NCBI GenBank assembly: GCA_025774615.1
Contig: JALGVQ010000050.1
Span: 1-14,871 of the forward strand
Direction: 5' to 3'
From: a bacterium
Lineage (GTDB): Bacteria; Blakebacterota; Blakebacteria; Blakebacterales; Blakebacteraceae
Length of the DNA stretch: 14,871 bases
The notes under the pieces are model-generated. The model ran no database searches. It was given only the letters and a program-made list of their open reading frames with translations, and was not told the DNA's origin. Within the stretch, counting starts at the first letter, position 1, and every line of letters starts with the position of its first letter. Below, in pieces: positions 3,204 to 14,871 of the stretch. The position numbers were made by a program, and so were the translations under genes.

Positions 3204-3614
3204 TCAGTCGGCCAACAGTTCAGCAATCGCTTTCAGGAACGGTTCCGGTTCGATCGGCTTGGGGAAGAAGCCGTCGGGCGGCGGTACCAGCCGGCGACCG
3301 CTCAGAAATTTCTCATAGCCATACTTGTCTCCACCGTAACCGGTTACCGCCGTCACGATGATCACCGGTATAGATGCGAGCTCGGCATCACTCCTGAAGT
3401 CCTTGTAGAACCGCGTCCCTGAAGCTTCCGGCATCGAGACATCGAGCGTCACCAGATCAGGCTTTTCCCGTTTGGCGACTTCGATACCCTCCCGTCCGTT
3501 CGAGGCGGATACAGTCTCATACCCTTTATCATGCAGGAGCATTTCCAGATAGCTCACCACATCGGGTTCATCGTCCACGATCAGGATCTTCTTGGTTCCT
3601 CCGGCACTCGACAT
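3204..3614 (-). CDS. Stand-alone response-regulator receiver protein (second of two)
   Basis: A 136-residue CheY-like receiver with no output domain. The acidic pocket is D14-D15, the phosphoryl-acceptor aspartate is D58 (VTLDVSMP), the switch threonine is T88 (IIVTA) and the conserved lysine is K119 (FFPKPI). Between T88 and K119 there is an extended loop of about 25 residues (GYGGDKYGYEKFLSGRRLVP) where an ordinary CheY has a short helix. This makes the alpha4-beta5 face, the usual partner surface, unusual. AGAAGGAG eight bases before ATG 3612-3614 is a strong ribosome site. The gene follows the other receiver by 45 bp and is the last of the operon. It probably receives phosphate from the kinase at 4209-5390 and acts by protein contact. 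The target is unknown. Confidence 0.93.
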   Translation of the reverse strand: MSSAGGTKKILIVDDEPDVVSYLEMLLHDKGYETVSASNGREGIEVAKREKPDLVTLDVSMPEASGTRFYKDFRSDAELASIPVIIVTAVTGYGGDKYGYEKFLSGRRLVPPPDGFFPKPIEPEPFLKAIAELLAD

Positions 3615-3659: not shown

Positions 3660-4193
3660 TCAGGAATCGGATGGCTCTTTGTTCTTCAGCGCCGCGAGAG
3701 CGCGTCGAAGAGCGTGCGGCTCGGCCTTTGAAAGCTGCTCTTCAAGTTCTTCCTGCAGGTTGATCCTGTCTTCATCCTCGGGTGTCTCTTCCAGGCCGAG
3801 AGCCCGCTGTACACAACGCACGTAGTCGAGAGGCTTGACCGGTTTCTCCAGATACGTCCCCGGACCGGAGATGACCCGGTTTTCCATGATGTCTTCGAGG
3901 TCGTCCCTGCCGAGTTCATCCTGCGCGTGCGCGGTTACAATGAGAACCGGGATTCGTGAGAGTTCCTGGTCCTTTCTCAGTTCATAGAGAAGTTTGTGTC
4001 CGCTCTTGCCCGGCATCACCAGATCGAGGGAGATGAAATCGGGCCGCTCATCCTGAATGATCTTCAGGGCTTCATTCCCGTCTGATGCCGTCAGGACATT
4101 GAAATCCGCATCGCGCAGTATCTGGGCCAGGTAATCCCGAACATTCGGCTCGTCATCGACGATGAGTACGATTTTATCTTTTGCTGTGGGCAT
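3660..4193 (-). CDS. Stand-alone response-regulator receiver protein with helical tail (first of two)
   Basis: A 177-residue protein with an N-terminal receiver. The acidic pair is D13-D14, the acceptor is D57 (ISLDLVMPGKSG), the switch residue is T87 (LIVTA) and the lysine is K117 (YLEKPVKP). The last 40 residues or so (about 136-177) form a charged helix, DEDRINLQEELEEQLSKAEP followed by an alanine/arginine-rich stretch. There is no DNA-binding or enzymatic domain, so the tail may mediate dimerisation or docking. CAGGAG lies seven bases before ATG 4191-4193, and the gene starts 15 bp after the kinase stop. Two receivers at the end of a transmembrane redox operon recall the rrf1 regulator gene that ends the hmc operon of Desulfovibrio vulgaris. 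That comparison is by analogy only. Confidence 0.92.
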   Translation of the reverse strand: MPTAKDKIVLIVDDEPNVRDYLAQILRDADFNVLTASDGNEALKIIQDERPDFISLDLVMPGKSGHKLLYELRKDQELSRIPVLIVTAHAQDELGRDDLEDIMENRVISGPGTYLEKPVKPLDYVRCVQRALGLEETPEDEDRINLQEELEEQLSKAEPHALRRALAALKNKEPSDS

Positions 4194-4208: not shown

Positions 4209-5390
4209 TCATACGATTGGTTCTGAAGATGTCTGATCGCCCTTCTTCTCGGTATCGGGCTCCAATTCGGGAAGATCATCCCGCGGCAGTTCGATCGTGA
4301 AGGTCGATCCTTTTCCTTCCTCGGATGTGAAGGAGATCTGGCCGCCATGCTGGTGAATGATCTTCTTGGTCGTCAACAGCCCCAGACCGGTACCATGATC
4401 GGACCCCTTGGTGCTGAAGAACTTCGAGAACACTTTCTTGCTGACTTCATAATCCATTCCCTGCCCGTCATCCATCACTTCGTAGATCAGCACACCATCC
4501 TCCTCACGCAGAGAGACCGATACCACGTGATCGCTTGCGCGTTCACTGAAGGTGCAGGCGTCGATGGCGTTCGAGATCAGATTTGCCAGGCAGGTGTGGA
4601 TCCCTTCTTCATCCAGGGGAGCTGATGCGATCCCTTCCTTGATGTGTACATCCAGGTAGATCCCTGATTGCGCGGCCCGTTCCACGAAGAGCTCTACAAC
4701 CTCTCTTACCGGCTTCGCGGGATCGGCCATCGAGACCGTGGCTTCCCGACCCCGGGCGAAGTCAAGGAATTCCATCACAAAGTTGGATATGCGGGTGACA
4801 TTCTCTTCCACCATCATCCAGCCGCGAGCGATCCGATCGTCATCCTCCTGCTCGATCCCCGTGTTGACCGCATACAGCCCGCCCTCTAGCCCCATGAGCA
4901 CATTCTTGATCCCATGGGCGATCCCGGCCACCGTCTCCCCTACCGCGGCCAGCCGCTGCGCCTCGCGTTTTTCGTGTTCAAGCTTCTTGACCTGCGTGAT
5001 GTCGGTTGACATCTCGATGACGTAGGGGATCTTTCCGTCCGGCTGGATAATGGGAAGCATCTGCACCAGATAATGCGACTTGCCGCCGTGGCGATAGGTG
5101 CCCTCTTCCTCCCGTGTCCGGATCTTGCCATCGGCAAAAGTCTCCGCCGCCGCGCACCGCTTGCAGCGCTCCGACCGACCTTTATACACTTCGTAACACT
5201 CACGACCCTTCCACTCACCATACTCCTCGGTGAAGCGCCGATTTCCCTCGACGATCCGGAAATCGGGACTGATCACACTGATGGCAACCGGGACCTCGTT
5301 GAACAGGTGCTGTCGGAGCCATTCCCGGCTGGCCGCATCGAGCATGTCATTGCCCGGTCCATCTGCCGTTAATCCGAAATCTGGTGTCAT
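4209..5390 (-). CDS. PAS-domain sensor histidine kinase, apparently cytoplasmic
   Basis: A 393-residue protein using ATG 5388-5390. A longer in-frame reading to 5495 would overlap the upstream gene by 88 bp and is rejected. AAAGGA lies about 11 bases upstream. Residues 29-135 are a PAS domain with a cysteine cluster at C65, C76 and C79 (ECYEVYKGRSERCKRC), a pattern seen in PAS domains suspected of binding iron-sulfur or haem groups. The phosphoacceptor is H159 in VAGIAHGIKNVLMGLEGG; glycine follows the histidine where most kinases have Glu or Asp. ATPase boxes follow: N (LANLISNAIDAC, about 268-279), G1 (DDGQG, 307-311), F (KVFSKFFSTKG) and G2 (GTGLGL, 333-338). No membrane helix is visible. 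The gene begins 17 bp after the cytochrome fusion gene, so it probably senses the redox state or output of that complex and feeds the two receivers downstream. Confidence 0.92.
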   Translation of the reverse strand: MTPDFGLTADGPGNDMLDAASREWLRQHLFNEVPVAISVISPDFRIVEGNRRFTEEYGEWKGRECYEVYKGRSERCKRCAAAETFADGKIRTREEEGTYRHGGKSHYLVQMLPIIQPDGKIPYVIEMSTDITQVKKLEHEKREAQRLAAVGETVAGIAHGIKNVLMGLEGGLYAVNTGIEQEDDDRIARGWMMVEENVTRISNFVMEFLDFARGREATVSMADPAKPVREVVELFVERAAQSGIYLDVHIKEGIASAPLDEEGIHTCLANLISNAIDACTFSERASDHVVSVSLREEDGVLIYEVMDDGQGMDYEVSKKVFSKFFSTKGSDHGTGLGLLTTKKIIHQHGGQISFTSEEGKGSTFTIELPRDDLPELEPDTEKKGDQTSSEPIV

Positions 5391-5407
5391 GACAGCATCG
5401 GATCCTT

Positions 5408-7363
5408 TCAATGCCCGCCCTGGACAACATTGCTGGAGATCTTCCTGACAGGAGTCATTTCCTCCAGCATCCCACTGAAATCGGCATCGTGGCACGCGTC
5501 ACATCTGTCGAGGAGGTCAGCGAACCGTCCCGGTTCTTCCCGGGCATTCCGCTCGTGACAGGTGACGCACAGGCCGTGCATCGCGTCCATATACCCCACC
5601 GCATCCCCCCAGCGCGAACCGGGCAATTCGAGGATGAGACCACTTCCTTCTGGATTCCGATGGCACTCGACACACGCCGTGGCGGTCTCGTAACTCTTTA
5701 CCTCACTTCCATCGCTGTGACACTCGGTGCAGCCGTCATTACCTTCAAGCGCCTGTACGTGAAATGAATGATCGAAAAGTGCTGTGGGTTCATACATGTC
5801 CCGATGGCACTCGAAGCATGAGGAATTGCGGTCATAGGGGAGATCGAGATGGTGACATGTCCTGCACGATTCATCCCCCCCCTGCCGATCGACGTGTCCG
5901 GCATGGTTGAACAGGACGAGGGTAGCATCCCGGTTCCCATTGATGGCCAGGAGCGGTATCGGGCTCTCTGCGCTCTGAGACCACTCTTCCGCTCCCAGAA
6001 TCGCCAGCGCATGAAAATCCCCCGCCTGACGGGATACCTGGTACCCTTCAACCATCCGTGGAACAGAAACCGGCGTCCGTACCGTTTCTGCTCCTTTCAC
6101 CGGCAGGAACAGCAGGGCCACAGCCGCGGACATGACCGCCACAAGTGAGTACCGCCTCGGTGAAGCCTGCTCACCCGGCATCAGATCGTGCAGGGTTGCC
6201 GCGTCATAGCTCGGCTTCATCGGATCGACGTGGGCAGGTTCGTCATAGACCTTCAGGTGTTCGACGAAGAAAAGAAAAACCAGGATACAACAGGAGACGA
6301 TACCCACACTGACAGCGATTTCTTCCCAGCTCGGGAAGTAACCCCATCCCTCCGGTCGGGTAAAAGCGACAATACTCATATTGAGACGATAGCCGATCAT
6401 GCCCAGTACGGTGAGAGATGAACAGATCGCCATCCCGGTGATCGAGGAGCGTATGCGCCGGACGAGCAGAAGTGATGCCGGAAGGATCGCGGCCATACCG
6501 AGTTCGAAGAGGAAGAGGAGACTCTGCCACGAACCATCGAACGCCATTCCCAGATCGCCGCGGACAGCGAGATCCACGAGGCGCAGAACCACATAGACCC
6601 AGAGTACGATCGATGCTGCCATCCCGACCCCCGGCAGGAGGTCCTTCTTCACCTTGTGACCGAAGAAGTACGACGAGAGTAACCCCTCCAGAACCACCAT
6701 CATCAGACCAAGACCGATTGCCGATATGAAGTAGAAGACATAGATGATGGAGGAGTACCAGAGCGGGTGCAGTCTCGCCGGTGCGATCAGAAAGAGCGAA
6801 CCGAGTGAAGACTGATGCAGCGTCGAGAGGACGATACCAACGATCACCAGAGGAATGGTTACCTTCCTCAGAAACTTCAGTATCCGCTGGAAGATCGGAC
6901 GACCGAAGAGCGGATGTTCCAGAACCACCGGCGCGAACTCAAGGGAGAGCACCGTCAGGTAGAGCATCACGCAGACGGCAACTTCGAACAGCACCGAGTG
7001 GTGCTGCCAGTAGATCATGGGATGCCAGATATTCCACGGCAGACCCAGGTCGTAGAGGAGTCCCACCGCGACGGCGAGGTAGCCCAGCAGGGCGGTCAGG
7101 ATCGCCGGACGCACACACGACCGGTATTTCTCGAGACCAAAGATGTACACGGTCGCGGCCATGACGAATCCGCCGGCAGCAAGCGCAACTCCCGCCATCA
7201 CGTCGAATCCGATCCACAGACCCCACGGCGACGCATCCGACAGGTTCGTGACCGCGCCGAGCCCCCGGGTGAACCGGACAACCGAGACAGCCGCCAGAAC
7301 CCCCACAGATGCCCACAGGAACGATTTAAGGATCGTCAGTCGATTAAGCATTGGTCTCTTCAT
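5408..7363 (-). CDS. NrfD/HybB-like quinone-binding membrane subunit fused to a hexahaem cytochrome c
   Basis: A 651-residue fusion. Residues 1-370 contain about ten membrane helices of the NrfD/HybB/HmcC type (for example WGLWIGFDVMAGVALAAG, WNIWHPMIYWQHHSVLFE), which exchange electrons with menaquinone. After a charged loop, residues 403-424 (RRYSLVAVMSAAVALLFLPV, then KGA) form an eleventh hydrophobic segment that looks like an embedded signal peptide. The C-terminal domain has six CxxCH haem sites at C500, C516, C545, C564, C599 and C621. It also has FNHAGH and FDHSFH motifs that could supply distal histidines, as in class III cytochromes. The eleventh helix would place the haems in the periplasm. 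The start at 7363 overlaps the ferredoxin gene by 20 bp; the ATG four codons later (7351) is an alternative. In Hmc and Dsr systems the membrane subunit and the cytochrome are separate proteins, so the fusion is notable. Confidence 0.92.
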   Translation of the reverse strand: MKRPMLNRLTILKSFLWASVGVLAAVSVVRFTRGLGAVTNLSDASPWGLWIGFDVMAGVALAAGGFVMAATVYIFGLEKYRSCVRPAILTALLGYLAVAVGLLYDLGLPWNIWHPMIYWQHHSVLFEVAVCVMLYLTVLSLEFAPVVLEHPLFGRPIFQRILKFLRKVTIPLVIVGIVLSTLHQSSLGSLFLIAPARLHPLWYSSIIYVFYFISAIGLGLMMVVLEGLLSSYFFGHKVKKDLLPGVGMAASIVLWVYVVLRLVDLAVRGDLGMAFDGSWQSLLFLFELGMAAILPASLLLVRRIRSSITGMAICSSLTVLGMIGYRLNMSIVAFTRPEGWGYFPSWEEIAVSVGIVSCCILVFLFFVEHLKVYDEPAHVDPMKPSYDAATLHDLMPGEQASPRRYSLVAVMSAAVALLFLPVKGAETVRTPVSVPRMVEGYQVSRQAGDFHALAILGAEEWSQSAESPIPLLAINGNRDATLVLFNHAGHVDRQGGDESCRTCHHLDLPYDRNSSCFECHRDMYEPTALFDHSFHVQALEGNDGCTECHSDGSEVKSYETATACVECHRNPEGSGLILELPGSRWGDAVGYMDAMHGLCVTCHERNAREEPGRFADLLDRCDACHDADFSGMLEEMTPVRKISSNVVQGGH

Positions 7364-8201
7364 CCTCTGGTGTCATCGGGGTCTCAGCACCGGCATCTTC
7401 ATCGGAAGCAGGGATCGCAGGATCGACGACCACGGTCGTCCCTCCATCATCGGCCATCGAGGCAAGCTTCATGCGGCGATTGATTACCCAGTACGCTCCG
7501 CCCATGAAGGCACCCATTCCCAGTATCACCGGTGGTACCTTGCTCAGTGACTGCCAGGTCAGGTCGGGCAATGCCTCGGTGCCGAGATCCGGTTTCCAGG
7601 AGAGGAAGTCGAGCGGAATATCGGAGACATAGAGGACCGAAGTTCCGCCCACTTCATGCTCCCCGAATATCCGATCGATGTACGTTTCCGGATCAGCAGC
7701 GATGCGTCGATCGGCCTCGGCCAGCAGGTCAGTACGGCTTCCGAAGACCGTAGCCTCCTGGGGACAGGCTTCTACACAGGCGGGGACCCCACCCTCGATG
7801 AGCCGGTGATGGCACATGGTACATTTGTGCACCAGCGGCGTCGCTTTATCCCAATCGTAGCGGGGAATGCCGTACGGACAGGCGAGCATGCAGTAACGGC
7901 ATCCCATGCACCGGTCCGAGTCGTAGATCACTGGTCCTTCGGGAGTCTTCTGCATGGCACCGACCAGACAGGCACTCACGCAGGCTGGTTCATGGCAGTG
8001 ACGACACTGCTGCAGAACGAAATGATCGTCGGGACGGCGATGCACCGTGCAGTTCCGGGTGGCGGATAGAGCATCGATCGCACCCTGTCCGCGCCACGGT
8101 CGGTCCTTACCGAGCCCGTTCTCTTCCTTGCACGCTACAACGCATTCTTCACAGCCGACGCAACGGGTCGTGTCGATGAGGATCGCTGGAGAATCAATCA
8201 T
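7344..8201 (-). CDS. Four-cluster [4Fe-4S] ferredoxin subunit with C-terminal membrane anchor (HmcB/DsrO/HybA-like)
   Basis: A 285-residue electron-transfer subunit. Sixteen cysteines in four groups fit four [4Fe-4S] clusters: C14/17/20/24, C66/69/74/78, C98/101/104/108 and C127/130/142/146. Motifs include CVGCEECVVAC, CRHCHEPACVSAC and CMGCRYCMLACPYG. A single hydrophobic segment at about 222-241 (VPPVILGMGAFMGGAYWVIN) anchors the C-terminus, and an acidic threonine-rich tail follows. Unlike HybA or DsrO, no Tat or Sec signal precedes the first cluster, which starts at residue 14. The side of the membrane is therefore uncertain. The ATG at 8201 overlaps the cytochrome b stop as ATGA, indicating translational coupling. 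The protein should bridge the NrfD-like subunit and a soluble or haem partner. Confidence 0.93.
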   Translation of the reverse strand: MIDSPAILIDTTRCVGCEECVVACKEENGLGKDRPWRGQGAIDALSATRNCTVHRRPDDHFVLQQCRHCHEPACVSACLVGAMQKTPEGPVIYDSDRCMGCRYCMLACPYGIPRYDWDKATPLVHKCTMCHHRLIEGGVPACVEACPQEATVFGSRTDLLAEADRRIAADPETYIDRIFGEHEVGGTSVLYVSDIPLDFLSWKPDLGTEALPDLTWQSLSKVPPVILGMGAFMGGAYWVINRRMKLASMADDGGTTVVVDPAIPASDEDAGAETPMTPEDEETNA

Positions 8202-8914
8202 ATCGGTTCATTCGCTTTCCCAAGGGCTTCACCCACCCGACTTCCCGATTCAGAAGGGAAATGCCAGGCGAGTTCAGAAACGATCTGTGTTCCCGGCAGG
8301 AGCACCATATGGCTGAGTTTGGTTATCGGGATCAGGAAAAAGAGGAGATCCCCACTCAGCACATGAAGGAACAGCATGAACTGGTGTGAGAAGGGATTCC
8401 AGGCCGGGTGCATCACCAGAAACCCCGTGGCGAAAGGTATCGCGACGATCAGGGGCATCACGAAGTCCTGAAACCGGCTCAGTCTCCGTGACTCCCTGAA
8501 CACGACGCGCTGGATCACGATCGTGACAGCCGCGATGACGGCGATGATGGTCAATGCCGTGGAGAGTCCATTGGGCAGGGCCGGCCAGGAGAGACCGATG
8601 CCCCGCTCCCAGAGGGCGATATGTCCAGCCAGAAAGATCGGGACGAGGATGATGGAGATATGGAAGATGAGCGTGTTCAGGCCGTAGAGCAGACGGTTCT
8701 TCAACCCCTGCGTCAGGAACAGCCATCTCAACGTGGCGCTTACAACCTGGCGTGTCGGTATGGTCTTGTCCCCAGCTCGCCGATACGAACGGATGATTCC
8801 CCACACGGTAATGGCAACATGGCGTCCAAGCCCGAGTACCATGAAGGCCAGTCCCGCCCAGAAGACAGGTCCTCTCAACCATTGCAGCAGAATGTCGAAT
8901 GTCATCACGCTCAC
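8198..8914 (-). CDS. NarI-like dihaem cytochrome b membrane subunit (HmcE/TmcC/DsrM-like)
   Basis: A 238-residue membrane protein with about five helices (near 15-40, 78-102, 117-136, 150-168, 178-198). Candidate haem b ligands are H85 and H98 in the second helix and H184 and H202 near the last. The 18-residue spacing of H184 and H202 equals that of the known haem ligands H187 and H205 of E. coli NarI. The family oxidises or reduces menaquinol and passes electrons to an HdrD-like partner, here encoded just upstream. The start is GTG 8912-8914, overlapping the upstream stop as GTGA. GGAG lies seven bases before it. GTG 8908 and ATG 8905 in the same frame are possible alternatives. Both overlaps with its neighbours mark strict coupling of the complex subunits. 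Confidence 0.9.
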   Translation of the reverse strand: MSVMTFDILLQWLRGPVFWAGLAFMVLGLGRHVAITVWGIIRSYRRAGDKTIPTRQVVSATLRWLFLTQGLKNRLLYGLNTLIFHISIILVPIFLAGHIALWERGIGLSWPALPNGLSTALTIIAVIAAVTIVIQRVVFRESRRLSRFQDFVMPLIVAIPFATGFLVMHPAWNPFSHQFMLFLHVLSGDLLFFLIPITKLSHMVLLPGTQIVSELAWHFPSESGSRVGEALGKANEPI

Positions 8915-10320
8915 TCCTCCTCTCCGGCAGCCTCGGATTCGGAGGCTTCATCACCCTCACCCGGTTTCGGGACTCCAAAGTCGATCACCTCGAGCAGCAG
9001 GTCGTGCAGCCCAACGACCCGGACCTCCTCAAGATCATTGTCCTCGCAAACCTCCCTGAGCTGTTTCTTGCAGTTCGCGCAAGGGGAGACGACGTAGTGC
9101 GCACCGGTGGCGCGTATCTGATCCGCCTTGCGCTTTCCCAGTGGGCCGGTGCGGATTTCACGAATCTCATCGATCGAAACCGTTCCGCCCCCTCCCCCGC
9201 AGCAGTAGTTCTCGGTGCGGTTCGGGGTCATTTCGACGAAGTCCTCGCAGATCGCCTTCAGTATCTCCCGGGGCTCTTCGGTTATCCTGCCGGTTCGAGC
9301 GATATTGCACGGATCGTGGTAGGTGACCCGTTCCTTTATCTTCTCCTTCTTCAGCGGAATCCTGCCGGCCATCAGCATCTCATGGGCATATTGCAGACAG
9401 TTGACCACGGGTGGCGCATCGGGTCCGCCAAAGGTCGGGACATACCAGGCGGAACGGGTCGCATGTCCGCATTCACCTACCAGGACTTTACTGCCATCCA
9501 GGCGGTGGACCTCCTTGATGACGTTGTTGACGATACGCTCCATCATCCGGTCGCTGTAGAACAGCCCGTAGTTGATACCGTCGTAGTTCCCGGTCCCGAT
9601 CGTCCACGATCCACCGGTAACATGCATCACGGCGGCGTTTCCCATCAGGGTGTCCGCTTCAAGCAGGTAGTCGGAGACGGCCGGGAAGAACACGAATTCG
9701 GCACCTTCGACATCGAAAGGAAACGTGATATTCACACCGTAGAGTTCCTCGAGTTCCTCCTCGAGAAACTCACAGGTGTCCTTGAGCGCCGGCACCGGAA
9801 TCGCAGAGGTGTTGCCGACACCCTCGAGCTGCTCCCGCGTGGCTACCAGCAGCGCTTTCGGGATCACATCGATTTCGGAGAGGATATATCGGGCCAGATG
9901 CGTGATCAGGCCGTGGTCGATGCCGAGCGGACAGCTTGACTTGCACCTTCGACAGGCCGTGCACCGGTAGAACTCATCAGCCATCGTATCGAGATATTCA
10001 TCGGTGAGGATGAAGGCCCTGCTGAACCGTGCCTTCAGTATCCCTAACTGGGTGAAATATCTGCGATAGATACGCATGAGGAGTTCGGAGCGCTGACAGG
10101 GTATATCACGCTCTTCCCGGGTGTCCTCATACAGCTGGCATGATGACGCGCAACGACCGCATTTGGTACTCAGGCGAGTGTATGTCTCCAGTGCCACACC
10201 ATAGTTGCCGTGCTCCAGCACAGCCGCGAACGCCTCGAGGAATTTTCGCGGTCTGTCGGTGACATCGAGGGCCTTCTGTTCCACATAATAGCTGTATTTG
10301 TCCCGTGTTGTGTTGCCCAC
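8911..10320 (-). CDS. HdrD-like iron-sulfur protein with CCG domain (HmcF/TmcB/DsrK-like)
   Basis: A 469-residue, apparently soluble protein expected on the cytoplasmic face, bound to the NarI-like subunit. Two ferredoxin-type cysteine groups come first: C54/C57/C61 with C75, and C120/C123/C126/C130 (CTACRRCKSSCP). One complete CCG domain follows: C338 (HDPCN), C373-C374 (YCCGGGGG) and C414/C417 (SPCANC). This would hold the noncubane-type cluster that handles disulfide chemistry in heterodisulfide reductase. The region where a first CCG domain would sit (about 205-320) keeps only C284 (VGECGH) of the expected cysteines. An acidic tail ends the protein. The start is GTG 10318-10320 with GAGGGG about nine bases upstream, 13 bp after the NifX-like gene. 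Likely electron partners are a thiol/disulfide cofactor or protein. No HdrE or Hdr flavin gene is in view. Confidence 0.92.
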   Translation of the reverse strand: MGNTTRDKYSYYVEQKALDVTDRPRKFLEAFAAVLEHGNYGVALETYTRLSTKCGRCASSCQLYEDTREERDIPCQRSELLMRIYRRYFTQLGILKARFSRAFILTDEYLDTMADEFYRCTACRRCKSSCPLGIDHGLITHLARYILSEIDVIPKALLVATREQLEGVGNTSAIPVPALKDTCEFLEEELEELYGVNITFPFDVEGAEFVFFPAVSDYLLEADTLMGNAAVMHVTGGSWTIGTGNYDGINYGLFYSDRMMERIVNNVIKEVHRLDGSKVLVGECGHATRSAWYVPTFGGPDAPPVVNCLQYAHEMLMAGRIPLKKEKIKERVTYHDPCNIARTGRITEEPREILKAICEDFVEMTPNRTENYCCGGGGGTVSIDEIREIRTGPLGKRKADQIRATGAHYVVSPCANCKKQLREVCEDNDLEEVRVVGLHDLLLEVIDFGVPKPGEGDEASESEAAGEEE

Positions 10321-10333
10321 TGATCAAAGCCCC

Positions 10334-10696
10334 TCATCTCGATGGGTGTGATGGAAGTTCCGTACCGGGTGGTGAAGTATCCTCATGTCCAGGGACGAGT
10401 TGACCTCTCAGGTAGAGTTCCAGGAGTGCATCCACACTCCCCATCACCCAGGAGATAACCTCGATCCCACTCCCCCGGAGGCACTCCTCCAGTACATCCT
10501 GAACGCCTCCGCAGATAATCGTATCTACTCCCTGGTCCCGGAGCAGACGGACCCTGTCGAACGGTTCCTGGCTCCGGAGCGGGAAGTCGACCTGGTTCGA
10601 GATGTGTCCCCCGGTGATGGTATAGATCGTCATCAAGGCACAATGACCTACACAGGGGGCGACATCCTCTCCCGATCGTGGAACCGCTATCTTCAC
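10334..10696 (-). CDS. NifX/NifB-type cofactor-binding domain protein (dinitrogenase iron-molybdenum cofactor biosynthesis fold)
   Basis: A 120-residue single-domain protein beginning MKIAVPRSGEDVAP. It contains IICGGVQDVLEECLRGSGIE (61-79) and VISWVMGSVDALLELYLRGQ, the typical layout of the NifX/MTH1175 ribonuclease-H-like family. The start codon is GTG 10694-10696, with GGGAGG seven bases before it. Members bind iron-sulfur or iron-molybdenum cluster precursors, but many occur outside nitrogen fixation. There is no nif gene here, so a role in nitrogenase is unlikely. C15, H18 and C19 in the first loop, plus C62 and C72, could hold a metal cluster. It is the first gene of the sigma-54 operon, which suggests a role in assembly or sensing for the redox complex. 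That role is inference. Confidence 0.82.
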   Translation of the reverse strand: MKIAVPRSGEDVAPCVGHCALMTIYTITGGHISNQVDFPLRSQEPFDRVRLLRDQGVDTIICGGVQDVLEECLRGSGIEVISWVMGSVDALLELYLRGQLVPGHEDTSPPGTELPSHPSR

Positions 10697-10893: not shown

Positions 10894-12288
10894 TTAGTGC
10901 GGTACTTTATAGTCCTCCGGGTTGATATCGTATTTCTGCAGTTTGCGCCACAACGTGGTCCTGCTGATACGCAGATCCTCTGCGGTATGGCCCTGATGGC
11001 CCTGATTTCGGCTGAGCGCAATCTGGATCGTGTGTGCTTCACTCTGCTGCAACCGGGAGACAGAGTCACCCCGGGCGGTACGGGTGACTGGTTCTTCATC
11101 CGGTTTCAGGTCTTCCGGTAGATGCCGGATCTCAATGAATCTGTTGTGACAGAGCACGAAGCCATATTCGATGATATTCTCCAGCTCGCGGGCGTTACCG
11201 GGAAACGTATGACGCATCAGGATTTCCATGACTTCGGGAGTGACTCCCTGTATCTGTTTTCCCCGCTTGGCATTGAAACGCTGGATGAAATGGTCGATGA
11301 GATAGGGTATGTCCTGACGACGCTCGACTAGAGGAGGAACCGTAAGGCGCACCACTGCCAGACGGAAATAGAGGTCATCCCTGAACTGCCCCCGGCTCAC
11401 CAGATCGGAGAGATCCCGGTTCGTAGCCGCCACGATGCGGACGTTTGCCGGAAGCGGCTTGACGCCGCCGAGAGGCTCGTACTGGCGCTCCTGGAGCAGA
11501 CGCAACAGCTTGACCTGTGTCTCTGTGGGGAGATCTCCGATCTCGTCGAAGAAGACGGTACCACCATCGGCGAGCGCTATCCGGCCCTTTTTATCTGCTT
11601 TGGCATCGGTGAAGGCGCCCTTCATGTAACCGAACAGTTCCGATTCAAAGAGGTTGGCGGGGAGGGTTCCGCAGTTCACCACAACATATGGCTGCTTTCC
11701 GCGAGGGCTGAGATTGTGGATCGCCCGGGCAAGCAGTTCTTTGCCTGAACCGCTCGGCCCCTCGATAAGAACGGTACTCTCACTCGATGCGATGTCGGGC
11801 AGGATAGCGAAAATCTTCTGGAAGGCTTCACTCTTGCCGATGATATCCTCGAATGTATACCTGCTCTGAATCTCCCTGCGGAGCTGTTCGATCATGCCAA
11901 GGTCCCGGAAGGTCTCGACCGCGCCGAGCAGGATGCCATCCTCACCGTGAAGCACGGCCGTGCTGATACTGATGGGGATCGATTTCCCCCGCTGGTTCAG
12001 GATGCGGGCCGGTTGATCGATCACCTCCTGCCCCGTGTCGAGTGACTGCCGGATCGCACAGCCCTTTTCACAGATATTCGCATGGAACACATCACAACAT
12101 TTCTTCCCGATAGCCCGTTCGGCGGAAACCCCGGTGATCCGCTCAGCCGCCCTGTTAAATGAGGTGATCTTCCAGTCGTTGTCGACCGTGAATACACCAT
12201 CAGCCACGCAGCGGAGGACCGACTCGAAGAACTGAGCCTGGCTGCCCGTCGATGATTCGTCGCGATGCTGTTTCTGTTCATCCGACAT
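10894..12288 (-). CDS. PAS-type sigma-54-dependent transcriptional activator (enhancer-binding protein)
   Basis: A 464-residue regulator. Residues 18-130 form a PAS domain with a cysteine group, C64-C65, C73 and C77 (KKCCDVFHANICEKGC), resembling the one in the nearby kinase. There is no receiver domain. The AAA+ domain (about 146-385) has Walker A GPSGSGKE (177-184), the sigma-54 contact loop as GAFTDA (224-229, normally GAFTGA), Walker B TVFFDE (244-249) and an FRDDLYFRL arginine-finger region. A Fis-type helix-turn-helix closes the protein (TAEDLRISRTTLWRKLQKYD). ATG 12286-12288 has GGAAG six bases upstream. By position it should activate the operon from the promoter at 10731-10746. The PAS domain probably senses redox state or a small ligand directly, since no phosphoacceptor is present. 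Confidence 0.94.
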   Translation of the reverse strand: MSDEQKQHRDESSTGSQAQFFESVLRCVADGVFTVDNDWKITSFNRAAERITGVSAERAIGKKCCDVFHANICEKGCAIRQSLDTGQEVIDQPARILNQRGKSIPISISTAVLHGEDGILLGAVETFRDLGMIEQLRREIQSRYTFEDIIGKSEAFQKIFAILPDIASSESTVLIEGPSGSGKELLARAIHNLSPRGKQPYVVVNCGTLPANLFESELFGYMKGAFTDAKADKKGRIALADGGTVFFDEIGDLPTETQVKLLRLLQERQYEPLGGVKPLPANVRIVAATNRDLSDLVSRGQFRDDLYFRLAVVRLTVPPLVERRQDIPYLIDHFIQRFNAKRGKQIQGVTPEVMEILMRHTFPGNARELENIIEYGFVLCHNRFIEIRHLPEDLKPDEEPVTRTARGDSVSRLQQSEAHTIQIALSRNQGHQGHTAEDLRISRTTLWRKLQKYDINPEDYKVPH

Positions 12289-12326: not shown

Positions 12327-12347
12327 CTCATACAGGGTACGTATGAG
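12327..12347. promoter_or_regulatory. Inverted repeat in the divergent intergenic region
   Basis: CTCATAC (12327-12333) and GTATGAG (12341-12347) form a perfect 7-bp inverted repeat around a 7-bp centre. It lies 39-59 bp upstream of the regulator start and about 155 bp before the symporter start. It could be an operator for either divergent gene. I found no clear sigma-70 or sigma-54 promoter in 12289-12501. Confidence 0.4.
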
Positions 12348-12501
12348 GAGGGTCGCTGACAATCGAAGTCCTTCCCCTCCCTGTAAGATCCATTCCCCTC
12401 ACCCCGCATGGTGGACTACAATCAGGCGGCCCGCTCAAATTCAGAGTCTGTTCTCGAATGACCGGGGCACTGCCGGCACGATTTCCAGATGGGACCACCG
12501 A

Positions 12502-13902
12502 ATGCTGATCGCCGTTGTCATCGTCTATCTCATCGCAACCATCCTTACCGGTGCTCTGCTGAGCAGGCGAACAAAGACTGCATCAGACTTCCTCATCGCG
12601 GGCAGGCAGTTGGGACTTCCCCTGACCACGGCCACCCTCGCCGCCATTCAACTCGGAGCCGGCGTGATCATCGGTGGAGCGGAACTGGGAGCCGAGAGCG
12701 GGATGTGGCCCGGTGTCTGGTACGGAATCGGCTGCGGCGGAGGCCTGATCGTGTCCGGCCTGCTGGTTGCGGCGAAACTCCGCAAACATGGAGGGATCGT
12801 CCCGCTCGACTTCTTCGGCTACCGGTATGGTGAAAGGAAAGGCGTCCGGCTCTGGGGATGGCTCTCCAACATTCCCAGCCTGCTGGGCATCTTCGTGGCC
12901 CAGATCATTGCGGCCGGGACCATATTCCGCGTCTTCGGCTTCGACTACACCACCGGCGTGATCATCTGCGGGATCGCGATCATGCTCTATAGCGTCCTGG
13001 GTGGTATGTGGGGGGTGGCGGCTACCAACCTGATCCAGGTCGGTATCATCGTGATCGGGATACCGCTGGTAGCGATCATGGCTCTGCTTGAACTCGGCAG
13101 TACCGGGACGGTCACGGCCGGCGCCATCATCGCCACACCCTTCATCCCGCCGGGAATGTTCACCCGCGCCGTATTCATCATCGTGCCCTTCCTCCTCTCT
13201 ATCTCTGTTTCGTATGACGCCTTCATGCGCTATCAGTCCGCCAGTTCGGCGAGAGTGGCGAAATGGGGCTGCATCCTGGGAGGCGTGATCGTCATCTTCA
13301 TCAGTCTCTGCGTCGGTCTGATCGGCGCCATCGGAAGAAACGTCTTCCCCGACCTGGAGAGCGGCGCCGTCCTCCCGATGATGATCCAGGAAACGCTCTC
13401 TCCCCTGTTTGCCGGTCTGGTCGTCGCTTCCCTTCTCGCCGCGGTGATGTCCACCGGCAACTGCCTCCTGCTCTCACTCGCCGGCTGCTTCTCCCGCGAT
13501 CTCTACAACAAGGTCCTCAATCCATCGGCCGAAATAGACGACCTGAAGCATTCGAAACTCATCTCGAGAGCGGTCATCGTCGGCGCCATGGTAGTAGGGG
13601 TAGTGATCGCGCTCCGCGGTGAGGGGATCATTTACACCATCATCATCTTCAACTACCCCTACATGGGGAGTATGCTCGTGCCACTCCTCGGCGGTGTCCT
13701 GTGGAAACGGGCCACCTGGAAGGGCGCGCTGGCAGCCATGCTGGCAGGAGGCGCGATCGGTGTCGTCTCGTTCCTCGCCGGTATACCCGGACCGCTGAAC
13801 GGGCTCTTCAACATCGATCTGGGACTATTCCTGGCCTACGCCGTTTCGGTTGTGGTATTCGTGGGAGTCAGTCTGAGGGACCGTGAGCCCGGTATCACCT
13901 GA
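12502..13902 (+). CDS. Sodium:solute symporter (SSS family)
   Basis: A 466-residue membrane transporter with about 13 hydrophobic helices, the usual SSS count. Recognisable elements are DFLIAGRQLGLPLTTATLAA (29-48), GGMWGVAATNLIQ (167-179) and AAVMSTGNCLLLSLAGCFSR (315-334), whose serine-threonine pair matches the sodium-site region of the family. I chose ATG 12502. A longer frame from 12343 adds 53 residues that are proline/arginine-rich and unlike a transporter N-terminus. The ribosome site is weak (GGGA, seven bases upstream). The gene is divergent from the sigma-54 activator and 15 bp before a flavoprotein gene, so the two are co-transcribed. The likely cargo is a small organic acid or amide that the flavoprotein could act on. 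Family membership is solid, but the substrate is unknown. Confidence 0.92.
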   Translation: MLIAVVIVYLIATILTGALLSRRTKTASDFLIAGRQLGLPLTTATLAAIQLGAGVIIGGAELGAESGMWPGVWYGIGCGGGLIVSGLLVAAKLRKHGGIVPLDFFGYRYGERKGVRLWGWLSNIPSLLGIFVAQIIAAGTIFRVFGFDYTTGVIICGIAIMLYSVLGGMWGVAATNLIQVGIIVIGIPLVAIMALLELGSTGTVTAGAIIATPFIPPGMFTRAVFIIVPFLLSISVSYDAFMRYQSASSARVAKWGCILGGVIVIFISLCVGLIGAIGRNVFPDLESGAVLPMMIQETLSPLFAGLVVASLLAAVMSTGNCLLLSLAGCFSRDLYNKVLNPSAEIDDLKHSKLISRAVIVGAMVVGVVIALRGEGIIYTIIIFNYPYMGSMLVPLLGGVLWKRATWKGALAAMLAGGAIGVVSFLAGIPGPLNGLFNIDLGLFLAYAVSVVVFVGVSLRDREPGIT

Positions 13903-13917
13903 GAAAGGGAACAGCCC

Positions 13918-14871
13918 GTGAAGGTACCCCCCTCCCCCGGTTCCGATTGGCCATACCCGCTGAAGCTGCAGGACGAGTCCGTGATCGAGACCGACGTGCT
14001 GGTGCTGGGCGGCGGGATCGCAGGGTGCTGGGCCTCCATCGCCGCCGCCCGGCAGGGCGTGAAGGTCATGCTGGTTGAAAAGGGAGCGACGATCAGAAGC
14101 GGCGCGGGAGGATCAGGATGCGACCACTGGGAATCGGCCGCCACCAATCCCTGCTCCCGGGTCACACCGGAAGAACTCACCCGGGCGATGATCGAAGACC
14201 ACGGCGGCTACAATAATGGTATCTCCCACTACATCGAGTGCCGGGAGGGATATGACCGGTTGCTCGATATGGAGGAGATGGGCGGCAAGATCAGGGACAG
14301 TGAGAACGAGTTCGTCGGTGCGGAGTTCAGGGACGAGAAGACGAAATTCCTCTTTGCCTACGATTATGAGAACCGGTTCACGCTGCGGGTATGGGGTACG
14401 ACCTTCAAACCCGCCCTGCATGCCGAATGTCTGCGTCTGGGAGTGAACGTCATCGACCGTACCATGGCGACATCGCTCCTCTCCGAAGATGGCAGGCAGG
14501 GTGCCCGGATCATCGGAGCCACGGCCGTCAACGGACGTACCGGGGAGTTCATGGTGCTCAGAGCCGGGGCCACCGTACTGGCCATGTCCCGTCCGACCCG
14601 GATGTGGCTCTTTTCGACCGGGATGCCCGGACTATCGGAATTCAGACCGCCGCAATGCACCGGAGACGGTCACGCCATGGGATGGAGGGCCGGGGTCGAG
14701 TTCACCATGATGGAGAAATCGGTCCGGGCAGAGTGGTCGGGAGAACGGAGTTACCCCCCGTACGGAACCGGCAATACGCACAACACCTGGTACGCCTGTT
14801 CCATGGTCGATGCCGAGGGACGGGAGATCCCGTGGGTGGATCGGGACGGGAACATCCTCGAGACCGTCTCC
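13918..14871 (+). CDS. FAD-dependent oxidoreductase, fumarate reductase / AprA-like flavoprotein (3' end outside window)
   Basis: The first 318 codons of a flavoprotein; no stop is reached by the window edge. The start is GTG 13918-13920 with AGGGA seven bases upstream. A dinucleotide-binding fold opens the protein: TDVLVLGGGIAGCWASIAAA (25-44), ending at E54 (MLVEKGA). It is followed by RSGAGGSGCDHWESA (60-74), where related enzymes hold the FAD. CTGDGHAMGWRAGVEF (near 247-262) is the second FAD-contact motif of the FrdA/SdhA/AprA superfamily. No signal peptide is seen, so a cytoplasmic location is likely. It is not a canonical FrdA or AprA by eye, and the catalytic region is mostly beyond the window. 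Joined to the symporter, it suggests uptake and reduction (or oxidation) of an organic substrate. Confidence 0.87.
   Translation, partial: MKVPPSPGSDWPYPLKLQDESVIETDVLVLGGGIAGCWASIAAARQGVKVMLVEKGATIRSGAGGSGCDHWESAATNPCSRVTPEELTRAMIEDHGGYNNGISHYIECREGYDRLLDMEEMGGKIRDSENEFVGAEFRDEKTKFLFAYDYENRFTLRVWGTTFKPALHAECLRLGVNVIDRTMATSLLSEDGRQGARIIGATAVNGRTGEFMVLRAGATVLAMSRPTRMWLFSTGMPGLSEFRPPQCTGDGHAMGWRAGVEFTMMEKSVRAEWSGERSYPPYGTGNTHNTWYACSMVDAEGREIPWVDRDGNILETVS

Follow-up and report, generated by a model that had tools for sequence, protein, structure and literature searches.

Can a quinone-linked NrfD subunit and a multihaem cytochrome c be a single polypeptide and, if so, what kind of complex does this polypeptide serve? 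These questions are raised by one gene in a 14,871-nucleotide stretch of DNA (the window) from a Blakebacterota genome (GCA_025774615.1, contig JALGVQ010000050.1). In the Hmc, Dsr and Act systems the NrfD protein and the cytochrome are separate chains, as a prior sequence-only reading of this DNA had stated and as published accounts agree (PMC8076601, PMC10924467). Here both lie in one frame of 651 codons that runs without interruption on the minus strand from 7363 to 5408, and the plus-strand frame over 5408-7363 is closed. The gene, its parts and its neighbors are listed below with the evidence for each.

3204..3614, minus strand: second response regulator receiver protein (translation); many related operons also have a second receiver gene
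3660..4193, minus strand: response regulator receiver protein (Pfam), conserved in position
4209..5495, minus strand: histidine kinase with PAS domain, the next gene after the fusion (ORF, Pfam)
5408..7363, minus strand: NrfD-hexahaem fusion, 651 aa (ORF, Pfam, curated families, CxxCH sites, AlphaFold2)
6239..7363, minus strand: fusion residues 1-375, ten-helix membrane domain of the NrfD family, HmcC/HybB/ActC type (NCBIfam HmcC, ActC fold match)
6095..6154, minus strand: fusion residues 404-423, predicted eleventh transmembrane helix, N-side to P-side (hydropathy, AlphaFold2 helix 397-419, positive-inside count)
5411..5947, minus strand: fusion residues 473-651, hexahaem c domain (six CxxCH and six invariant non-motif His)
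7344..8201, minus strand: HmcB-like four-cluster 4Fe-4S subunit with a hydrophobic C-tail and no signal peptide (Pfam/NCBIfam, inspection of tail and signal)
8198..8914, minus strand: NarI-like membrane subunit of TmcC/HmcE type (curated families)
8911..10320, minus strand: protein of HdrD/DsrK/HmcF type that has one CCG domain and a pair of 4Fe-4S motifs (Pfam, curated families)
10334..10696, minus strand: NifX/MrpORP-like small protein (Pfam, curated families), kept in most HdrD-bearing operons
10894..12288, minus strand: PAS-sigma54 activator-Fis regulator (Pfam), conserved at the operon head

The listed GTG start of the histidine kinase overlaps the fusion, and its true start is probably near 5411. 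No standard-form sigma54 promoter was found ahead of the operon; the only match, with one mismatch, lies inside the activator gene and is below chance expectation. On the strand opposite to the fusion operon are an SSF-type symporter (12343-13902, plus) and an FrdA/AprA-like flavoprotein (13918-14871, plus) that is truncated where the window stops.

Residues 38-326 of the fusion match Pfam NrfD (PF03916; 6.8e-13, 49.4 bits against a cut-off of 25.8), which places the protein in the NrfD/PsrC family, whose members have eight to ten helices and bind no cofactors of their own. The best curated family is NCBIfam HmcC (NF045714), with 337 bits over residues 20-376, short of the equivalog cut-off of 550. 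AlphaFold2 predicted ten long helices within residues 1-369 and a separate helix at 397-419 (pLDDT 81-88), and model residues 1-375 matched the fold of ActC from alternative complex III with a Z-score of about 31. The ten helices of NrfD/HybB type that had been read from the letters are thereby borne out, as is an eleventh hydrophobic segment, which hydropathy places at 404-423 beside an RR pair at 403-404. Replacement of R89, Y99, E148 and H184 in Escherichia coli HybB reduces activity according to a review (PMC8076601). These positions align with R85, Y95, E142 and H183 of the NrfD half, and by this alignment the proton/quinone residues of HybB are kept.

The haem half carries CxxCH sites at residues 500, 516, 545, 564, 599 and 621, all six in the same open frame as NrfD, as first reported; 20,000 shuffles of residues 431-651 gave a mean of 0.04 and a maximum of two such motifs. 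Class III cytochrome c (Pfam) matches residues 481-568 (8.9e-13), and the nearest solved proteins are the 16-haem HmcA cytochromes (5.1e-16). The AlphaFold2 model of this part, made without haems, is of low confidence. An alignment of 28 relatives shows no variation in the six motifs, nor in exactly six further histidines (H487, H490, H505, H532, H535 and H596), so that the domain has the CxxCH motifs and distal histidines of a multihaem, class III-like c-type cytochrome. We infer that these twelve invariant features match the needs of six bis-His haems.

C-type haems require the periplasmic side of the membrane. Lysine and arginine are richer on the N-side loops of family members than on the P-side loops (means of 19.7 vs 8.1 per protein, with helix ends taken from hydropathy), and this charge bias argues for an N-in topology in which helix 11 runs from inside to outside. 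Both termini of ActC are likewise on the N-side (PMC8076601). Because loop charges, ActC termini and the requirement of c-type haems agree, the prediction that helix 11 places the haems in the periplasm, on the same chain as the quinone subunit, is well supported and upholds the original proposal on this point.

An unusual architecture could by itself suggest a sequencing or assembly artefact that joined two genes. This possibility is negligible, because the same frame and near-constant haem spacing recur in independent assemblies from several phyla, and this genome itself has two copies; the independent assemblies also dispose of the hidden stop or start that the sequence-only reading had named as a possible refutation. 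The second fusion in the genome (contig C154) is 40% identical and shares the gene order, and a second genome of the genus carries an 84%-identical orthologue and has orthologues of both copies. The window's genome is 82% complete and its phylum is represented by four genomes. A scan of the haem domain against 84,980 species returned 29 loci, one of them (L051) unrelated. All 28 relatives have six CxxCH motifs, mostly at offsets 0, 16, 45, 64, 100 and 121, and the domain is fused in 26 of 26 readable loci, the two other relatives being cut by contig ends. The homologues, all in one open frame, are from Latescibacterota, Gemmatimonadota, Planctomycetota, Acidobacteriota and Myxococcota. A search of a plasmid collection gave only partial matches, to unfused HybB-type proteins.

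When a tree was built from the NrfD halves, all fused proteins fell together (92/85, 93% of bootstraps). A tree enlarged with Acidobacteriota retained a fused clade of 39 rows (96 SH-aLRT), which takes in one five-haem and one seven-haem member. Because the fused NrfD halves form one clade, the simplest reading of the tree is that the fusion arose once, long ago, and then spread both vertically and laterally. The two copies in the window's genome sit in different main branches of this clade, which suggests that they are either old paralogues or separate acquisitions. Helix 11 had been proposed to be the former signal peptide of a secreted cytochrome. This proposal found no backing, as the scan of 84,980 species revealed no relative of the hexahaem domain that is secreted on its own, and it is at present a guess. 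The sole candidate for such an ancestor, L053, was rejected: its reading frame is open at the contig end and starts inside helix 11, as expected of a cut fusion.

Other joinings of NrfD were met along the way. Judged by eye, a third NrfD paralogue of the window's genome (L020, contig C306; 1869-3809, 949-1692 and 4751-5422, minus strand) has a C-terminal transmembrane helix and GcvH/lipoyl-like domain in place of haems, with a lysine at the would-be lipoyl position; more GcvH-like frames lie on both sides, together with a Tat-bearing Fe-S gene. L054 (G012:C139, 43-3075) is a separate NrfD fusion with at least 12 CxxCH motifs, part of it octahaem-reductase-like by eye, and its NrfD half falls outside the hexahaem clade. 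In L075 (G745:C3, 6705-8300, minus strand) NrfD is joined through a helix to a trihaem domain beside a signal-less Fe-S gene, and this protein falls in the unfused sister group. One contig (G012:C260; L042 and L056) carries a cluster of a 16-haem cytochrome, a Tat-bearing Fe-S protein and an unfused HmcC-like protein about 11 kb from its fused cluster.

The genes around the fusion vary in content among lineages. Type A operons have the order sigma54 activator, NifX-like protein, HdrD, NarI, Fe-S subunit, fusion, histidine kinase and receivers, although individual loci may miss some genes; they are found in this window, Latescibacterota, Gemmatimonadota, Acidobacteriota and some Planctomycetota and Myxococcota. 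Type B operons (Phycisphaerae) consist of NarI, Fe-S subunit, fusion and a 23-haem cytochrome, and type C operons (Myxococcota) of NarI, Fe-S subunit and fusion, both without HdrD. The core common to all three is thus NarI, Fe-S subunit and fusion. In Phycisphaerae the 23-CxxCH cytochrome lies directly 3' of the fusion (L033 6213-9263, L036 4710-7325 and similar loci), and in Myxococcota a secreted protein with weak Svf1/lipocalin similarity is encoded upstream of the three core genes (L044 1938-3041, L043 and L049). Apparent NarI-FeS fusions in Myxococcota were frames extended in the wrong reading frame. H98, H169 and H184 of the NarI-like subunit are invariant in 25 relatives, and in HdrD the CCG cysteines and the two 4Fe-4S motifs are all conserved.

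One of the closest known systems is the Hmc complex of Desulfovibrio (HmcABCDEF): among curated families the NrfD half scores best against HmcC, the haem half is nearest HmcA among solved structures, and the three genes upstream of the fusion match the HmcB, HmcE/TmcC and HmcF/DsrK families. In Hmc, however, HmcA and HmcC are separate genes, and HmcA has sixteen haems rather than six. There is no 16-haem gene in the window operon, no HmcD was recognized there, all scores are under the curated Hmc cut-offs, and the Fe-S subunit keeps the tail anchor but not the Tat signal that Hmc has along with it. DsrMKJOP is built of the same parts (NarI-like, HdrD-like, multihaem c, Fe-S and NrfD) and is tied to dsrAB, but its DsrJ is a separate triheme cytochrome, whereas the NrfD half here is HmcC-like rather than DsrP-like and the operon gave no match to DsrP or DsrJ. 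The DsrP of the window's genome is a different gene, on contig C3. ActC shares the ten-helix NrfD fold but only 13-16% identity; it has no eleventh helix, and its cytochrome ActA is a separate subunit. Cbc4 (CbcSTU)/SirCD-type modules also combine NrfD, Fe-S protein and c-type cytochrome as an exchangeable module (PMC11434368) but as three separate chains and without HdrD or NarI. The nearest precedent found is CbcL of Geobacter sulfurreducens, a single chain in which a membrane domain that deals with quinone is joined to multiple c haems in the periplasm (PMC9129911); CbcL is not an NrfD protein, however, as its membrane part has six helices and two b haems, and it carries nine c haems. NrfD modules, the Hmc and Dsr complexes and joining of the CbcL type are thus already known, and no account of an NrfD-multihaem fusion was found in the open-licence papers searched, although a subscription paper or database annotation could contain one. 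Wide occurrence of identical fusions already described had been named beforehand as a refutation; the fusion does occur widely, but an earlier description in those papers was not found.

The HdrD-bearing operons are associated with dissimilatory sulfite reductase. dsrA scored above cut-off in 14 of 16 genomes with type A operons vs none of 13 with type B or C (hypergeometric 1.5e-6, a naive value that, like those below, ignores relatedness and is thus too small, overstating the independence of genomes), and the same contrast is seen within Planctomycetota and within Myxococcota. Among 395 Gemmatimonadota genomes, four have the fusion and six have dsrA, and all four fusion genomes have dsrA (naive hypergeometric 1.5e-8, or 8e-5 when the two genomes that the fusion itself had brought into the study are left out). 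Among 396 Acidobacteriota genomes, 16 have a member of the fusion clade and 31 a dsrA match, with an overlap of 14 (naive values 1e-15, or 1.5e-14 minus the study-seeding genomes). Seventeen Acidobacteriota genomes were above the search threshold, but G745 was set aside for its different, NrfD-trihaem fusion; loci were read in G009, G495, G566, G578, G645, G667, G716, G725, G757, G801 and G440, and the fusions in G454, G480, G531, G540 and G684 are defined by match and frame length. The direction of the association is consistent in the two phyla. The two HdrD-bearing genomes without detected dsrA, and likewise L076 (G725), may be incomplete assemblies.

In two Acidobacteriota (L069 and L070) the fusion operon adjoins dsrAB, with dsrA and dsrB above curated cut-offs, a genetic link like that of DsrMKJOP. 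The order in G716 is DsrK-like, receiver, kinase, HdrD, NarI, Fe-S subunit, fusion, one unassigned stretch, dsrA and dsrB; in G801, dsrB and dsrA abut receivers, kinase, fusion, Fe-S subunit, NarI, HdrD and activator. Because L069 has its own dsrK/dsrM-like genes beside the fusion operon, the fusion complex is extra to them. The window's operon is not adjacent to dsrAB; contig C3 of its genome carries dsrA, a DsrK-like end and the NrfD gene beside it, and QmoABC-like genes (contig C270) and DsrC are also present. DsrC was found in nine of the 14 genomes searched, with G006 and G052, both carrying dsrA and the fusion, among those where it was not.

From the parts, their order, their co-occurrence and the conserved residues, all directly observed, we would predict the side of the haems, the electron path and its direction, a partner and proton coupling. 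The conserved gene set around the fusion probably passes electrons across the cell membrane. Our preferred reading, with a probability of roughly 0.6, is that the fusion supplies the quinone module of a transmembrane redox complex resembling Hmc and Dsr; an HmcA-like cytochrome has there been joined to an HmcC-like subunit, and electrons would move between periplasmic cytochromes or menaquinone and cytoplasmic HdrD/DsrC. This route is the accepted outline for the Hmc and Dsr complexes (PMC6303296, PMC8076601, PMC10924467). Periplasmic cytochromes would give electrons to the hexahaem domain, which would pass them through the Fe-S subunit to a menaquinone site in the NrfD half, with proton uptake there as in HybB/QrcD, and/or through the b haems of the NarI-like subunit to cytoplasmic HdrD. 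HdrD would then reduce a carrier of the thiol-disulfide kind, in dsr-bearing hosts most likely DsrC, and so serve sulfite reduction, and the direction of electron flow could reverse with redox conditions. In the HdrD-less operons of Phycisphaerae and Myxococcota (those of Phycisphaerae with the 23-haem cytochrome alongside), the core is more likely a wire from quinone to periplasm or the reverse.

The sequence-only reading tied the haems directly to the quinone site, which is conjectural; almost all loci retain a four-cluster Fe-S gene next to the fusion. The side of this Fe-S subunit, and with it the path to quinone, is uncertain because the subunit has no export signal: a Tat or Sec signal is absent in 38 of 38 fused loci, with the first cluster motif at most about 15 residues from the start, whereas a Tat motif is present in all eight Fe-S partners of canonical unfused NrfD subunits. 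NarH sits under NarI and offers a model for cytoplasmic placement. The signal-less 4Fe-4S protein might accordingly lie inside, under the NarI-like subunit, with tethered haems replacing Fe-S at the periplasmic quinone site and no Fe-S relay at all, and no Tat-bearing partner for it was recognized in the fusion operons. We nevertheless consider this arrangement unlikely. A conserved RR just after the hydrophobic C-tail points to a cytoplasmic C-terminus and hence to a periplasmic Fe-S domain; the unfused sister group equally has Fe-S proteins without a signal, so that signal loss needs no fusion and may be the older event; and in NrfD relatives the Fe-S subunit docks on the quinone-site side (PMC8076601). 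Moreover, a possible case of hitch-hiking through Tat has been described (PMC10924467), in which a tail-anchored Fe-S protein without a signal of its own may cross together with a hydrogenase that has a Tat signal. The choice between an Fe-S subunit outside by hitch-hiking and one inside under NarI is thus the choice between our preferred reading and this rival. A farther-reaching claim strikes us as quite doubtful: that these loci represent a widespread, so far undescribed class of transmembrane complex linked to dsr, whose signal-less Fe-S subunit works on the cytoplasmic side and whose covalently attached periplasmic haems do the work of the Fe-S relay at the quinone site of NrfD.

Alternatively, the fusion might act as a CbcL-like quinol oxidase for periplasmic or extracellular electron export, which oxidizes quinol at NrfD and hands electrons on to other cytochromes by way of its six haems; the dsrA link would then be incidental to an anaerobic lifestyle. 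The HdrD-less versions in Phycisphaerae, beside a 23-haem cytochrome, would fit this role, and in CbcL itself nine haems are attached to a membrane domain that works with quinone (PMC9129911). However, the HdrD-bearing versions, including that of this window, track dsrA and twice adjoin dsrAB, and the window contains no multihaem outer-membrane conduit. We therefore regard this alternative, too, as improbable.

The fusion leaves a cytochrome locked to its quinone subunit, which makes the complex purifiable and testable as a 1:1 electron wire, and the fusion complex is a compact, recognizable marker that tracks dsrA in the two phyla tested in bulk. The lost Tat signal puts in question which side the Fe-S subunits of such complexes occupy; if the haems did replace the Fe-S relay, the quinone and b-haem branches would be wired unlike those of every known NrfD complex. 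The finding bears on how uncultured sulfate or sulfite reducers outside the classical lineages bring electrons to DsrAB.
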